Below are positions 29,036 to 35,317 of a stretch of 64,000 nucleotides of DNA, one piece after another; the stretch's first letter is position 1, and the number at the start of each line of letters is the position of its first letter. The notes under the pieces were generated by a model. The model worked only from the letters and a program-made list of their open reading frames with translations, did no database searches and was not told the origin of the DNA. This DNA is from Alteriqipengyuania lutimaris (GTDB lineage: Bacteria; Pseudomonadota; Alphaproteobacteria; Sphingomonadales; Sphingomonadaceae): positions 2,392,501 to 2,456,500 of the forward strand of contig NZ_QRBB01000001.1 of NCBI RefSeq assembly GCF_003363135.1, in the 5' to 3' direction. The position numbers and the translations under genes were made by a program.

Positions 29036-31692
<2,657 letters not shown>

Positions 31693-31744
31693 GACCGGAA
31701 TATAGCGTCCAACCCCAAGCCTTGGCAATTCTCACCACATTGCT

Positions 31745-31791: not shown

Positions 31792-31809
31792 TTGGCACGC
31801 CGGTTGCAA
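31792..31809 (+). promoter_or_regulatory. Sigma-54 (-24/-12) promoter of the psp operon
   Basis: TTGGCACGCCGGTTGCAA matches the -24/-12 consensus TGGCAC-N5-TTGCA. GG at 31794-31795 and GC at 31806-31807 have the required 10-bp spacing. Transcription would begin near 31819, ahead of the GAGGAGG ribosome site. It lies between pspF and the first psp operon gene. Confidence 0.88.
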
Positions 31810-31841: not shown

Positions 31842-31997
31842 ATGCACGAACAAGCCCACCCCAAACGCCACGCCGTCGGCAAGGCCGTGCTGGTCACCAT
31901 CCTCGCCGCGGGCACACTCGTCGCATTGAATCCGCTGCCTGCCGATGGCGCGCAGATCGACGGCCCGATTATGATACAGGTAACCGAAATCGCATGA
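31842..31997 (+). CDS. 51-aa membrane ORF leading the psp operon
   Basis: A short protein with an excellent ribosome site (GAGGAGG, 9 nt before ATG). The basic N terminus (MHEQAHPKRHAVGK) is followed by a hydrophobic stretch AVLVTILAAGTLVALNPL and a short tail. It may be a single transmembrane helix or a cleaved signal peptide (ADGA). Its stop overlaps an ATG at 31994 by 4 nt. No family was recognised. As first gene after the sigma-54 promoter it should be strongly induced by envelope stress. Confidence 0.7.
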   Translation: MHEQAHPKRHAVGKAVLVTILAAGTLVALNPLPADGAQIDGPIMIQVTEIA

Positions 31998-32185
31998 CCG
32001 ACCATACTGACCCGCCCGGCCGCAACGGCCGCCTCTCGCGCCTCGACAACGAGGTCGAGCGTCTGCGCCGCAGCCCGACCCCGACGCAGGAGCGTCGCTC
32101 GAGCGCGGAACGCGCCGCGGACTGGACAAACCCGGACCGGGTCAACGAGAAGCTCACCGATTTCATTTCATACGGAGCACCCTTT
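31994..32185 (+). other. In-frame 64-codon leader fused to pspA
   Basis: From ATG at 31994 (overlapping the previous stop as ATGA) the frame is open with no stop into pspA. It encodes a basic, Arg- and Pro-rich segment (NEVERLRRSPTPTQERRSSA). Codons up to about 32155 have the GC-rich third positions of real genes; the last eight codons before 32186 (ATT TCA TAC GGA GCA...) do not and contain a GGAG ribosome site. PspA could thus exist in a long (295 aa) and a normal (231 aa) form. Confidence 0.5.
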
Positions 32186-32881
32186 ATGGGCATTTTCAGC
32201 CGCACGCGAGACATCATCGCGGCCAATTTCAACGAAATGCTCGACAAGGCGGACGACCCTTCGAAGATGATCCGCATGATCATCCTCGAAATGGAGGAGA
32301 CGCTGGTCGAGGTTCGCGCGAGTGCCGCGCGTACGATCGCCGACCAGAAGGAAATGCACCGCCACTCGGTCAAGCTCGACAAGCTGCAGACCGACTGGGC
32401 CGAAAAGGCGCAGCTGGCGCTGAGCAAGGACCGCGAGGACCTCGCGCGCGCCGCGCTGGTCGAAAAGAAGAAGGCCGCCGACATGAGCGAGCAGCTCAAG
32501 GCGGAAATCAGCGTGCTCGACGATTCGCTGCGCGCCTACGAGGAAGACATCCACAAGCTGCAGAGCCGCCTGCGCGAGGCGCGCAGCCGCCAGTCGCAGA
32601 TCGCCGCCCGGCTCGAAAGCGCGGAAAACCGCGTGAAGCTGCGCAGCCTGATGACGACCGAGCGCGTGGACGAGGCGCTGACGCGCTTCGACGCGCTCGA
32701 GCGCCGGGTCGACTACGCGGAAGGACGCGCCGACCAGCTCAAGATGGAAAGCGAGAACTCCAAGCTCTCCCTGTCCGACGAAATCGCCGCGCTCGGCGGA
32801 TCGGACAAGGTCGACGAGGAACTCGAAGAAATGAAGCGCGCGCTCGGCAAGGGTGCCGACGACGCCAAGAAGGGAGACTGA
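32186..32881 (+). CDS. pspA: Phage shock protein A (IM30/Vipp1 family)
   Basis: A peripheral membrane coiled-coil protein that stabilises damaged inner membrane and inhibits PspF. It opens with the family amphipathic helix MGIFSRTRDIIAANFNEMLD and the conserved EDTLVE-like segment EMEETLVEVRASAART, then long helices. 231 residues from ATG at 32186, close to the E. coli length of 222. GGAG stands 9 nt before this ATG. See the separate entry for the in-frame extension from 31994. pspB follows 3 nt after the stop. Confidence 0.92.
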   Translation: MGIFSRTRDIIAANFNEMLDKADDPSKMIRMIILEMEETLVEVRASAARTIADQKEMHRHSVKLDKLQTDWAEKAQLALSKDREDLARAALVEKKKAADMSEQLKAEISVLDDSLRAYEEDIHKLQSRLREARSRQSQIAARLESAENRVKLRSLMTTERVDEALTRFDALERRVDYAEGRADQLKMESENSKLSLSDEIAALGGSDKVDEELEEMKRALGKGADDAKKGD

Positions 32882-32884
32882 CCC

Positions 32885-33199
32885 ATGGAAGATGTATTTC
32901 TACCGATCATCATCGTCGGCATGCTGTTCATCGGGCTGCCGTGGGTCATCCTGCACTACATTACCAAGTGGAAGACCTCGAACGGCGGCATCACAACCGA
33001 CGACGAAGCGCTGCTGGAAGAGCTCTACGCGCTCACCAAGCGGCTCGACGACCGGATGGATACGGTCGAGCGGCTGGTCGCCCACGACCATGCGGACTTC
33101 AAGCCCGCCCGGCTGATTGCCGACAATCCATCGGACAACGAGGAACTGGCCGAGCTGGAAGCACTGCTCGCCCAGAAGAGGAAGGAAACCCGCGCATGA
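32885..33199 (+). CDS. pspB: Phage shock protein B
   Basis: A 104-residue inner-membrane protein. One N-terminal helix (FLPIIIVGMLFIGLPWVILHYITKW) with the typical LPWxxxHY is followed by a cytosolic coiled coil containing RLDDRMDTVERLVAHDHADFK, equivalent to the E. coli PspB end ERIQALESILDAEHPNW. With PspC it senses stress and relieves PspA inhibition of PspF. It is longer than E. coli PspB (74) by an acidic C-terminal tail. Its stop overlaps the pspC start (ATGA). Confidence 0.9.
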   Translation: MEDVFLPIIIVGMLFIGLPWVILHYITKWKTSNGGITTDDEALLEELYALTKRLDDRMDTVERLVAHDHADFKPARLIADNPSDNEELAELEALLAQKRKETRA

Positions 33200-33576
33200 A
33201 CACGCCCCGCACCACGCTCTACAAGGACAAGCAGAACGCGAAGCTGATGGGCGTCTGCTCGGGCCTCGCGGACTATACCGGGGTCGACGCGCTCTGGTGG
33301 CGGCTCGGCATGCTGTTCATGGTCTTTGCGACCAGCGGCCTCGTCCTGCCGATCTATCTCTTGGCCGGCCTGCTGCTCGATGCCAAGCCGCACCACCTCT
33401 ACACCGAGGACAAGCAGGAACAGAGATACTGGCAGGGCGTGCGCGCCAATCCGAACCGCACCGCCCGCGAAATCCGCGGCAAGCTGCGCGAGATCGACCG
33501 CCGGCTGGCGAATGTGGAGGAGCACTACGTGAGCTCCAACCCGCGCCTCGACGCCGAAATCGAACGCCTGCGCTGA
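33196..33576 (+). CDS. pspC: Phage shock protein C
   Basis: A 126-residue membrane protein with the PspC domain: LYKDKQNAKLMGVCSGLADYTGVD, then one or two hydrophobic segments (LWWRLGMLFMVFATSGLVLPI and YLLAGLLLDAKP). The C-terminal helix EIRGKLREIDRRLANVEEHYVSSNPRLD would project into the periplasm or cytosol. The sensor partner of PspB. Starts at ATG 33196 with GGAAA upstream. Confidence 0.92.
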   Translation: MNTPRTTLYKDKQNAKLMGVCSGLADYTGVDALWWRLGMLFMVFATSGLVLPIYLLAGLLLDAKPHHLYTEDKQEQRYWQGVRANPNRTAREIRGKLREIDRRLANVEEHYVSSNPRLDAEIERLR

Positions 33577-33603
33577 ACCAGTTAACAAGGGAAGGAGGAA
33601 AAA

Positions 33604-33915
33604 ATGGGCGAACTGATCCCCATTGCCGGCATTATCATGGGCTGCATGATCCCGATCACCGCATTGTGGACCAAGCACCAGCAGAAGCTGGCAGAGATGC
33701 AGATCGAGACCACCGCCAGCGCCAGCGCCGAAAAGGCCGCGCAATACGCCTCTCAGATCCAGCGGCTCGAAGACCGGGTCCAGGTGCTCGAACGGATCGT
33801 GACCGACAAGGGCTACGACGTCGCCACCCAGATCGAGGCACTGCGCGATGCGCGCAGTCACGATAAAGCCGCCAGCGGTACGCCGTTGGGCTTCGAAAGC
33901 CGGGAGAAGGCGTGA
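33604..33915 (+). CDS. PspB-like membrane coiled-coil protein, paralogue 1
   Basis: A 103-residue protein with a strong ribosome site (GGAGG). N-terminal hydrophobic segment IPIAGIIMGCMIPITALWT, then a charged coiled coil (KHQQKLAEMQIETTASASAEKAAQYASQ, abbreviated) and the motif DRVQVLERIVTDKGYDVATQIEALRD. The motif aligns with PspB (RIQALESILDAEHPNW). A plausible extra PspB-type sensor or PspA/PspC partner; no function is established. Starts 27 nt after pspC. Confidence 0.82.
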   Translation: MGELIPIAGIIMGCMIPITALWTKHQQKLAEMQIETTASASAEKAAQYASQIQRLEDRVQVLERIVTDKGYDVATQIEALRDARSHDKAASGTPLGFESREKA

Positions 33916-34250
33916 TGGATTTCGGCGGACCAACCTTCGTTATCGCGATCATCGCGCTGTGCACTGCCGGATGGCTCATCAACAACTGGATCCGCGCCAA
34001 GCACGGTTACGACCTGGAGGACGAATGGGGCGGCAAGACGCCCCGGGCCGACAAGTCCGCAGAAACCGACGCGCTGCGGGCCGAAAACGCCAAGCTCGTC
34101 GACCGGCTGGACGACCACGCGCAGCGCCTCAAAGTGCTGGAGCGGATCGTGACCGAGCGCGGCTATTCGCTCTCCGACGAGATCGAAGCGCTACGGCGCG
34201 ACGAAAGCAGCGGTGTCCCGATCGACACCGGCAGAAAGGAACGTGTCTGA
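33915..34250 (+). CDS. PspB-like membrane coiled-coil protein, paralogue 2
   Basis: A 111-residue protein. The ATG at 33915 overlaps the previous stop (TGATG); a GTG one codon earlier is possible. Helix FVIAIIALCTAGWLINNWI, then RAKHGYDLEDEWGG, a coiled coil (ALRAENAKLVDRLDDHAQRL) and LKVLERIVTERGYSLSDEIEALRR. It shares the KHGY-[DP]-LE segment with paralogue 3, so these two are the closest pair. Confidence 0.82.
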   Translation: MDFGGPTFVIAIIALCTAGWLINNWIRAKHGYDLEDEWGGKTPRADKSAETDALRAENAKLVDRLDDHAQRLKVLERIVTERGYSLSDEIEALRRDESSGVPIDTGRKERV

Positions 34251-34567
34251 TGCCTTTCGCAATGACATCCGAAGTGATCGCCATCGTCGGCCTCGCCGGT
34301 GTGGCAGGCTGGGTCCTCACCACCTGGATGCGGATCAAGCACGGCTACCCGCTCGAAAACAGCTGGGGCAAGGCGATCTATCCCAAGGGCAGCGAAGAGC
34401 GGGTGAAACTGCTGACGCAGGAAAACGCGCAGCTTCGCGCAGAGCTCGGATCGATCAAGGACCGGCTCGGCAATGTGGAGCGGATCGTGACCGACAGCGG
34501 CTACCAGCTGACCCACGAGATCGAGACGCTGAGAGAGACCGGACGCGACAAGCAGGAGGCACACTGA
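34250..34567 (+). CDS. PspB-like membrane coiled-coil protein, paralogue 3
   Basis: A 105-residue protein whose start overlaps the previous stop (TGATG). Helix VIAIVGLAGVAGWVLTTWM, then RIKHGYPLENSWGKAIYPKG, coiled coil LLTQENAQLRAELGSIKDRL and the motif GNVERIVTDSGYQLTHEIETLRE. Likely a tandem duplicate of paralogue 2, from the shared KHGY-x-LE-x-x-WG segment. Confidence 0.82.
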   Translation: MPFAMTSEVIAIVGLAGVAGWVLTTWMRIKHGYPLENSWGKAIYPKGSEERVKLLTQENAQLRAELGSIKDRLGNVERIVTDSGYQLTHEIETLRETGRDKQEAH

Positions 34568-34863
34568 TGAGTTTCTGGAGCGCCATCGTCCTGATCGTCC
34601 TGATCGGTGCCGCCGCCAGCATTCTGCGCGCGCGCTACAACGCACAGGCGGGGATCACCGAAGACATGATGGGCAACCAGACCATCACCCACCGCCCCGA
34701 TCCGGAGCCGCGGGCGGACCCGGAGGCCGAGCGCGAGATTGCCGCGCTCAAGGAGCGGATCGCGGTGCTCGAACGCATCGCCTACGACAAGAACAGCGCC
34801 ACCGCGCAGGAGCGTGCACGCATCTCCGCCGAGATCGACGCGCTGCGCGAAGAGCAGGACTAG
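34567..34863 (+). CDS. PspB-like membrane coiled-coil protein, paralogue 4
   Basis: A 98-residue protein whose start again overlaps the preceding stop (TGATG). Helix MSFWSAIVLIVLIGAAASILRA, a Pro/Arg linker (HRPDPEPRADPEAE), then IAALKERIAVLERIAYDKNSATAQERARIS. The GY of the motif is lost (DKNSA), and an insertion separates it from the closing EIDALRE. The most divergent of the four adjacent copies. Confidence 0.8.
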   Translation: MSFWSAIVLIVLIGAAASILRARYNAQAGITEDMMGNQTITHRPDPEPRADPEAEREIAALKERIAVLERIAYDKNSATAQERARISAEIDALREEQD

Positions 34864-34910
34864 CGCCCGCACTGCGGCACACCCGAACCCGACCACACAG
34901 GATTGAAGTC

Positions 34911-35144
34911 ATGGAGCCGACACTCGTTATCGCCGCCGCCGCGCTTCTGGGCCTCGGCATGGTTGCCGCCGCGCTGCTTCGCGCCTGGGAAGGCTGGCTG
35001 GCGTATAAGCGCCGCGAGCTGGATGCGGTCGCCCGGGGCGACCGGGCGCTGGAGGATGCACGCGGCACCGCACCCATCGCCATCGCCGACCTGCGCGAAC
35101 GCATCCGCAAGCTCGAAGCCATCGCGAGCGGCGTCGACCTGTGA
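34911..35144 (+). CDS. Short PspB-like membrane protein, paralogue 5
   Basis: A 77-residue protein, close to E. coli PspB in length. Helix LVIAAAALLGLGMVAAALLRAWEGWLAY, then a helix with ELDAVARGDRALEDARG and the terminal IADLRERIRKLEAIASGVDL, which keeps the PspB-like R-E-R-I-x-x-L-E-x-I pattern but lacks the D-x-G-Y. AGGA stands 9 nt before ATG 34911. The next ORF overlaps its stop. Confidence 0.75.
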   Translation: MEPTLVIAAAALLGLGMVAAALLRAWEGWLAYKRRELDAVARGDRALEDARGTAPIAIADLRERIRKLEAIASGVDL

Positions 35145-35317
35145 GCGGCGCGCGCAGCCAGGCGGCACAGGCAGGCATCGGGCTCGGCAGCGCGATCGCC
35201 GTCGCCATCTCCTGGTCGCTCCACCAGTCGATCGTCTGGGCGATCGTCCACGGCTTTCTTTCGTGGTTATACGTGATCTATTATGCGCTGACGCGCGAAG
35301 GCGGGCTTGCGGGTTGA
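35141..35317 (+). CDS. 58-aa hydrophobic ORF closing the psp operon
   Basis: Read from GTG at 35141, overlapping the previous stop (GTGA). It encodes a mostly hydrophobic protein with two likely helices (GIGLGSAIAVAISWSLHQSIV and WAIVHGFLSWLYVIYYALT) and a short polar tail. Too short for reliable homology, but codon use and coupling support it. Downstream follows an inverted-repeat element. Confidence 0.62.
   Translation: MSGARSQAAQAGIGLGSAIAVAISWSLHQSIVWAIVHGFLSWLYVIYYALTREGGLAG

Follow-up and report, generated by a model that had tools for sequence, protein, structure and literature searches.

The stretch of the Alteriqipengyuania lutimaris genome analyzed here (64,000 nucleotides (nt) of contig NZ_QRBB01000001.1, referred to below as the window) carries a phage shock protein (psp) unit, in which pspA, pspB, and pspC are followed by a row of five small genes (array genes 1–5; Table 1). 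Judging from their counterparts in other Sphingomonadaceae, these genes are old paralogues kept in conserved slots and not fresh duplicates, and the closing motif of their products resembles the end of PspC at least as much as PspB. We lean, though narrowly, toward the view that the array proteins would be membrane-anchored tail adaptors, docking PspA and/or competing within the PspBC complex. The array had been noticed in a first-pass annotation, made from the sequence of the window alone, which described five open reading frames (ORFs) after pspA-pspB-pspC, joined by TGATG overlaps or short gaps, each with one N-terminal membrane helix, a coil-like tail, and a closing motif, and explained them as duplicates of PspB that might form a graded or combinatorial membrane-stress sensor set. 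The five ORFs and their positions, all five quoted motif strings, the coupling, and the helices were recovered in this work, while the proposed duplication of PspB was supported only in part.

Array proteins and their relatedness

Each of the five array proteins contains a single strongly hydrophobic N-terminal stretch (17-residue mean 2.08–2.48) and no second one, with lysine and arginine residues (K/R) on its inner side and a coil behind it, which is the build of the PspB family. Among 376 array and gene-5-type proteins of Sphingomonadaceae, a helix-grade segment was found in 360 (the other 16 have no clear helix) and a second segment in none. Moreover, 358 of the 360 helix-bearing proteins have more K/R after the helix than before it; the tail should therefore face the cytoplasm, where PspA is, which leads to the adaptor reading. 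In an AlphaFold2 (AF2) model of the array gene 3 product, helices span residues 7–31 and 48–104 (predicted local distance difference test (pLDDT) 71).

With the gene 3 product as a query, gene 2 (E-value 2.9e-17) and gene 1 (E 7.9e-5) were retrieved from the same genome. Profiles of the array groups match each other with 98–99.9% probability, while the gene-5 profile reaches 15–24% against the first-slot, gene-2, and gene-3 groups, 93.4% against gene 4, and 95.7% against the mid-slot group. On these comparisons, array genes 1–4 are one family and gene 5 is its weak relative. Array gene 1 has 5092 homologues at E ≤ 1e-3, and a match to gene 3 at E ≤ 0.01 is present in 79 of 99 Sphingomonadaceae genomes (its own included). 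A search for relatives among solved structures gave weak matches only, with a potassium channel as the best (E 0.011), followed mostly by chains of viral fusion proteins; these were taken as generic coil matches and set aside.

Spread, slots, and age of the array

Two samples of psp loci were compared. The first comprises the best 80 of 300 loci found with PspA of the window, and it therefore leans to close relatives. All 80 close loci contain pspB, pspC, and array genes, and in the 76 of them that reach sufE the array (gene-5 type included) counts 3 genes in 2 loci, 4 in 14, 5 in 35, 6 in 18, 7 in 5, 8 in 1, and 9 in 1. The second, fairer sample was drawn from 99 Sphingomonadaceae (GTDB) genomes of 94 genera, with PspC over the cut-off in 90, and gave 89 family loci (the window's own excluded). 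Of these 89 loci, 87 have at least one array gene, most commonly three or four plus the gene-5 type. Without the gene-5 type, the numbers are 0 genes in 2 loci, 1 in 10, 2 in 7, 3 in 31, 4 in 23, 5 in 10, 6 in 5, and 7 in 1 (start codons for the array-size, junction, locus-reading, and paralogue counts were chosen by script). The gene-5 type is present in 80 of the 89 family loci, with sufE downstream in 79 of 89, and it is the last array gene in all 80; the order of the gene-3 and gene-4 types is likewise fixed, gene-3 coming first in 46 of 46 loci.

For 372 of the 376 array and gene-5-type proteins the best match lies in another genus and not in the protein's own array, which argues for old paralogues, and the remaining four may be recent duplicates. 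A best match elsewhere is favoured by the sheer number of other genomes (87 against one); single other genomes were therefore drawn at random as a control, and in these draws the other genome won in 72% of cases (gene-5 type 93%, gene-4 type 82%, gene-3 type 71%, first slot 66%, and the rest 55%). Purifying selection acts on the array genes as it does on pspB and pspC: the median ratios of nonsynonymous to synonymous substitution rates (dN/dS), from 10–15 pairs among six genomes, are 0.42, 0.20, 0.19, 0.27, and 0.23 for genes 1–5, and 0.19 and 0.27 for pspB and pspC, respectively.

The tail module

The first-pass annotation aligned the closing motif with PspB and proposed to check this with PF06667 and with profile-profile comparison. 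None of the window array genes passes a PspB cut-off, the best Pfam score being 13.4 bits (gene 1, E 0.084; cut-off 25.6) and the best NCBIfam score 18.7 bits (gene 1; cut-off 51.7), and the PspC domain PF04024 gave no match in genes 1–6 at E ≤ 1. The NCBIfam PspC model (TIGR02978) is matched by gene 1 at positions 46–121 (E 2.2e-4), by gene 2 at 85–121 (E 0.033), and by gene 3 at 82–121 (E 0.0016), i.e., the tails of genes 2 and 3 correspond to the last 37–40 positions of this model; genes 4 and 5 do not match it. When 40 array proteins were scanned singly, matches at E ≤ 0.01 were obtained in 19 with the NCBIfam PspC model, in 10 with the PspB model TIGR02976 (best E 9.9e-6), and in 4 with Pfam PspB (best E 0.00012).

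Hidden Markov models (HMMs) of the tails were then built only from PspB tails and PspC ends from outside the family, with composition-kept shuffles as the baseline. The PspB tail model exceeded the 99th shuffle percentile in 270 and the PspC end model in 257 of 296 array proteins, and the best shuffle was exceeded in 126 and 140 of the 296, respectively. In genes 1–3 the PspC alignment covers 28–37 residues and reaches the end of PspC, compared with 13–25 residues for PspB. Profile probabilities to the PspC end are 94.6% (E 7.4e-8) for the gene-3 group, 72.5% for mid-slot, 61% for gene 2, and 56% for gene 4, and those to PspB are 56% for the gene-2 group and 0.6–34% for the others, where values of 25–60% mean little because coils attract weak matches. 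The closing motif was thus rejected as a specific PspB signature, as PspC matches equally well, and the resemblance to PspC is claimed for genes 1–3 only. What stands of the PspB likeness is the build, the psp layout, and one bridging gene described in the next section.

Bridging operons and relatives outside the family

Among the psp loci outside Sphingomonadaceae, 26 of 28 stretches were usable (L236, a non-psp locus, and L262, with pspC unrecognised, were dropped), and the count was limited to genes lying 3' of the best pspC. Extra genes after pspC occur in two of the 26, L250 and L251, which belong to one genus. In both, the gene directly after pspC has a PspC-type tail (TIGR02978 E 5.6e-7 and 1.1e-6, positions 81/82–121), and the next, bridging gene is of the PspB type (TIGR02976 E 3.8e-10 and 3.4e-11), scoring in L251 43.2 bits, under the 51.7 cut-off. 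The anchors of the two L251 genes are similar (11 of 20 residues), and the L251 bridging gene matches a first-slot array protein of another locus, L009, at E 4e-12 (a single-pair E-value) with 43% over 60 residues, anchor included. With PspC-type and PspB-type tails on similar anchors, anchor and tail type thus appear to combine in one family, which would join PspB and the PspC end. This agrees with a 2024 survey, which states that a divergent PspB can form the C-terminus of PspC and that the operon can contain PspB duplicates (PMC11237479). Two separate observations concern the outside operons: PspC of L250 and L251 has a long N-terminal extension, and L239 and L241 (one genus) represent another operon enlargement, an extra pspC-like and an array/PspB-like gene lying between pspB and pspC; as the count takes in nothing upstream of the best pspC, these two loci score 0.

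Relatives of the array proteins are also scattered outside psp loci. In a class sample of 289 genomes, the array profile has matches at E ≤ 1e-3 in 16; five belong to the same family (3–5 matches each), and 10 of the 11 others have a single match. In a phylum sample, relatives were found in 49 of 348 genomes at E ≤ 1e-4, of which 30 lie outside the family, and 28 of these 30 have strong matches (best E < 1e-8, a line set after seeing the table). PspC at E ≤ 1e-15 is present in all 28 outside genomes with a strong relative vs 29 of 301 others, among which the two weak cases, G605 and G650, were counted (Fisher p 4.9e-25, shared descent ignored). Within the same order, outside the family, PspC occurs in 44 of 44 genomes with a relative vs 12 of 17 without (the phylum and order samples share four genomes, three with a relative and one without). 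In each of the 28 genomes with strong matches, the best match lies more than 78 kilobases from pspC or on another contig. At 20 outside loci the relatives are 64–99 amino acids (aa) long (one of 135 aa has a doubtful start) and have the same tail; among the 117 homologues of one of them, the database names are mostly hypothetical protein, and some are 'phage shock protein B' or 'C'. Two explanations of the outside relatives were rejected: as pspG-like PspF targets, for which the sigma-54 element is not clear, and as genes with a common neighbour, for all that is shared is a short ORF in four loci (66 aa in two) and general synteny among three.

Proposed role of the array proteins

In the adaptor reading, each array protein would be a PspB-type single-pass protein with a short N-terminus outside and the coil inside the cell, whose cytoplasmic end would be the module that the PspB tail has in common with the C-terminus of PspC; genes 1–3 show this most clearly. 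The array proteins would be produced along with PspA from the PspF/sigma-54 promoter, would form membrane assemblies with PspB, PspC, and each other, and would bind PspA and/or compete with PspC for it. The outcome would be to set the amount of membrane-held PspA and the switch-off timing of the response, and differing anchors and juxtamembrane segments (e.g., KHGYPLExxWG) would suit the individual slots to different partners or membrane cues. What we infer for the array proteins is their topology, their assembly, and the binding of PspA. For PspC itself, published work on E. coli and Yersinia has its end hold PspA under membrane stress, with the release of PspF: residues 69–119 of the E. coli protein, with a zipper at 77–98, are reported to be needed for PspA contact and induction (PMC3068692), and in the on state of Yersinia the C-terminal cytoplasmic domain of PspC is reported to bind PspA and free PspF (PMC5596341).

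Several points weigh against this reading. The inside/outside picture is debated, because the E. coli report places the end of PspC putatively in the periplasm and allows for two topologies (PMC3068692). The AF2 models are middling (pLDDT 71 and 67, predicted template modelling score 0.32 and 0.35) and too uncertain for fold comparison. The PspB and PspC matches of the 40 singly scanned proteins are far under the curated cut-offs, and a background of weak coil matches is visible, as an IS1182 transposase model matches four of the same 40 and the mid-slot group reaches 24.6% against PspA, an unrelated pair. The PspC end beats the PspB tail in only 142 of 296 array proteins, so that neither model wins overall, and the first-slot group profile gives 2.7% against PspC. 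Both models fit genes 4 and 5 of the window poorly, with scores of no more than 0.7 and 5.6 bits, respectively, against the PspC end. Outside the family, two weak matches (G605 and G650, E about 8.6e-5) occur in genomes without PspC, and the examined relatives lie away from psp, among unrelated neighbours. They also show no clear sigma-54 element, as none of the 20 has one at ≤ 1 mismatch and 7 have one at ≤ 2 mismatches, vs 14% of background windows. Finally, data on interactions, expression, or phenotypes could not be found for any of the array genes.

Among the other explanations, the one that survives best, though we consider it unlikely, is that the array tails act in the manner proposed for PspB, which may keep the PspC end closed through its cytoplasmic part, so that they would buffer PspC and raise the induction threshold, with no PspA docking. 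The nearness of the L250 and L251 bridging gene to true PspB and the PspB tail scores over the shuffle threshold in 270 of the 296 proteins are consistent with such silencers, but the tails of genes 1–3 run past the PspB match into a PspC-like end. Somewhat more doubtful still, the array proteins could be effectors, i.e., stress-made structural coils that support the membrane outside signalling and do not bind PspA. Their genes stand at the end of the unit, and the neighbours of the examined outside relatives have no common theme; on the other hand, the tail common to the array resembles the PspA-contacting end of PspC, and the co-occurrence with PspC speaks against effectors too, although an effector could also follow PspC. 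Array size does vary, from 0 to 7 genes (8 with the gene-5 type) in the 89 family loci and from 3 to 9 in the 76 close ones, but a neutral or dosage expansion, with tandem copies drifting without separate roles, is highly improbable given the cross-genus best matches, which prevail also in random single-genome draws, the kept slot order, and dN/dS of 0.19–0.42.

Returning to the adaptors, we tentatively propose, with less confidence than for the adaptor role of the array, that small (about 65–110 aa) PspB/PspC-tailed membrane proteins may form a general, unrecognised class of Psp partners across Pseudomonadota. They would be scattered singly or in pairs in several lineages and gathered in Sphingomonadaceae as an ordered array in which as many as eight or nine specialised adaptors would compete for PspA and PspBC, so that one repair machine would read several membrane cues. 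For the mostly 'hypothetical' proteins of this kind in Thalassotalea, Colwellia, and Pseudoalteromonas, the co-occurrence with PspC offers a first functional hypothesis.

Most work on the still open questions of how PspA finds membrane damage and what tunes the Psp response has been done in systems with one PspB and one PspC. Since the array is ordered and family-wide, and its proteins appear to have the PspA-gripping end on anchors of their own, it would allow gene-by-gene dissection of docking, and through such a row of anchored tail copies many adaptors might tune a single stress system.

Organization of the psp unit

Table 1. Predicted features of the psp unit in the window
Feature	Position	Strand	Basis or remark
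pspF, divergent activator	30658..31728	-	TIGR02974, 471.6 bits (cut-off 443.55); start codon uncertain
Sigma-54 type -24/-12 promoter element of the psp unit	31793..31807	+	pattern match, TGGCAC-N5-TTGC, 0 mismatches
First gene of the unit, 51-aa single-helix protein	31842..31997	+	reading frame, helix scan
In-frame N-terminal extension of the pspA frame, 64 codons	31994..32185	+	ATGA-coupled to first gene; may give a long PspA
pspA	32186..32881	+	TIGR02977, 267.4 bits (cut-off 242.95)
pspB	32885..33199	+	TIGR02976, 82.6 bits (cut-off 51.7)
pspC	33196..33576	+	TIGR02978, 119.1 bits (cut-off 104)
Array gene 1	33604..33915	+	helix, coil, and tail LERIVTDKGYDV...IEALRD
Array gene 2	33915..34250	+	helix, segment KHGYDLEDEWGG, coil, and tail LERIVTERGYSL
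Array gene 3	34250..34567	+	helix, segment KHGYPLENSWG, coil, and tail VERIVTDSGYQL
Array gene 4	34567..34863	+	helix, coil, and tail LERIAYDKNSAT; PspC-end match not usable
Array gene 5, most distant array member	34911..35144	+	tail LRERIRKLEAIASGVDL
Gene 6, 58-aa small membrane protein	35141..35317	+	4-nt overlap with gene 5

A pspF gene and a sigma-54 element ahead of the unit, which together define membership of the PspF regulon, are both predicted at the window locus. An element with at most one mismatch lies within 600 nt upstream of pspA in all 79 related loci with at least 300 nt of upstream sequence; in 71 of the 79 it is perfect and sits 331–550 nt 5' of pspA. One such site occurs in a total of 175,678 nt of DNA from pspB to gene 5. 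Overlaps of 1 nt (TGATG type) join array genes 1/2, 2/3, and 3/4, while gaps of 27 and 47 nt separate pspC from array gene 1 and array gene 4 from gene 5, respectively (the mechanical ORF start of array gene 2 is a GTG at 33912, 3 nt before 33915). Across related loci, overlaps of 1 or 4 nt were found at 286 of 527 junctions from pspB onward and at 218 of 332 inside the array; of the 47-nt gaps, 40 of 41 are pspB-pspC pairs, for which the script probably took a late ATG. From this gene layout we infer that the array is co-transcribed with the psp genes; no RNA evidence for the array was found in the open-access literature.

As to the extent of the unit, the first-pass annotation was right about the five genes, but it missed the sixth, coupled gene and left the first one undescribed. 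A sufE-like gene (Pfam SufE, 114 bits) follows 3' of gene 6; it was left out of the unit because sufE of Zymomonas mobilis is reported in a transcription unit of its own (ZMO1067-1068; PMC10746277).

The first gene has no Pfam or NCBIfam match at E ≤ 1. A candidate leader ORF of about 50 aa with a conserved single-helix sequence is present in 77 of 78 loci examined. By position, the first gene is the counterpart of Z. mobilis ZMO1062 ('putative pspD'), which is reported as up-regulated along with pspA in xylose media (PMC8645129) and listed beside pspA in a temperature table (PMC8237431). The ATGA-coupled in-frame start behind it would add 64 residues to PspA, with the motif SRLDxEVERLRRSPTPT, which occurs in 72 of 78 related loci and is coupled and in frame in 46; the median dN/dS of this extension is 0.62. 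A separate GGAG/AGGA box precedes the usual, short start of pspA in 78 of 78 loci, and two forms of PspA are therefore possible. Gene 6 is under strong constraint (median dN/dS 0.10) and was found in 33 of 80 close loci and in 6 of 89 family loci; profile comparison detected no relationship to the array, and it has no Pfam match.

Comparison with known systems

PspG and PspD of enterobacteria are, like the array proteins, extra small proteins of the PspF regulon, but no array gene matched these families in the Pfam and NCBIfam scans. PspB (PF06667, TIGR02976) shares with the array proteins the small single-pass build, the N-terminal helix, the inner basic residues, a coil containing LExR..LERI(L/V), and the encoding in psp; the array proteins of the window (77–111 aa) differ in staying under both cut-offs and in their juxtamembrane segments, and those of genes 1–3 in their extra PspC-like ending. 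The likeness to PspC is restricted to its end (TIGR02978 about 82–121), to which the matches of genes 2 and 3 are confined (gene 1, 46–121), and includes an E-R-x-V-T ending followed by L..E(I/F)..L, whereas the PspC domain (PF04024) is lacking from the array proteins.

Extra PspB-like genes in psp operons are already known. One sentence of the 2024 survey mentions 'PspB duplicates' in the psp operon, with AOL22920.1 as an example (PMC11237479), an observation of the same kind, with PspB present more than once beside pspA and pspC; the survey, in its accessible text, gives no copy number, slot order, separately anchored PspC-type tail, outside relatives, or co-occurrence. This line is the nearest description that we found, as the ordered array, its slots, and the outside family were not found described in the open-access literature, including the accessible text of PMC11237479 and PMC9239133.

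A further close system is the psp unit of Z. mobilis, a member of the same bacterial family, in which ZMO1062-1065 have the same gene order as the window. Up-regulation is reported for these genes in xylose media (PMC8645129) and for pspA, pspB, and pspC in the presence of ethanol (PMC3495753). Among all loci examined, only L146 is matched by six published primers for Z. mobilis, which identifies it as the psp locus of this species. Its single array gene after pspC, unlike the five of the window, should be ZMO1066 by gene count, a tag not found in the open-access literature. Z. mobilis has a minimal version of the system, with one array gene, and is a harmless species of industrial use for which gene-deletion and CRISPR interference (CRISPRi) work has been published (PMC8543907, PMC10746277).

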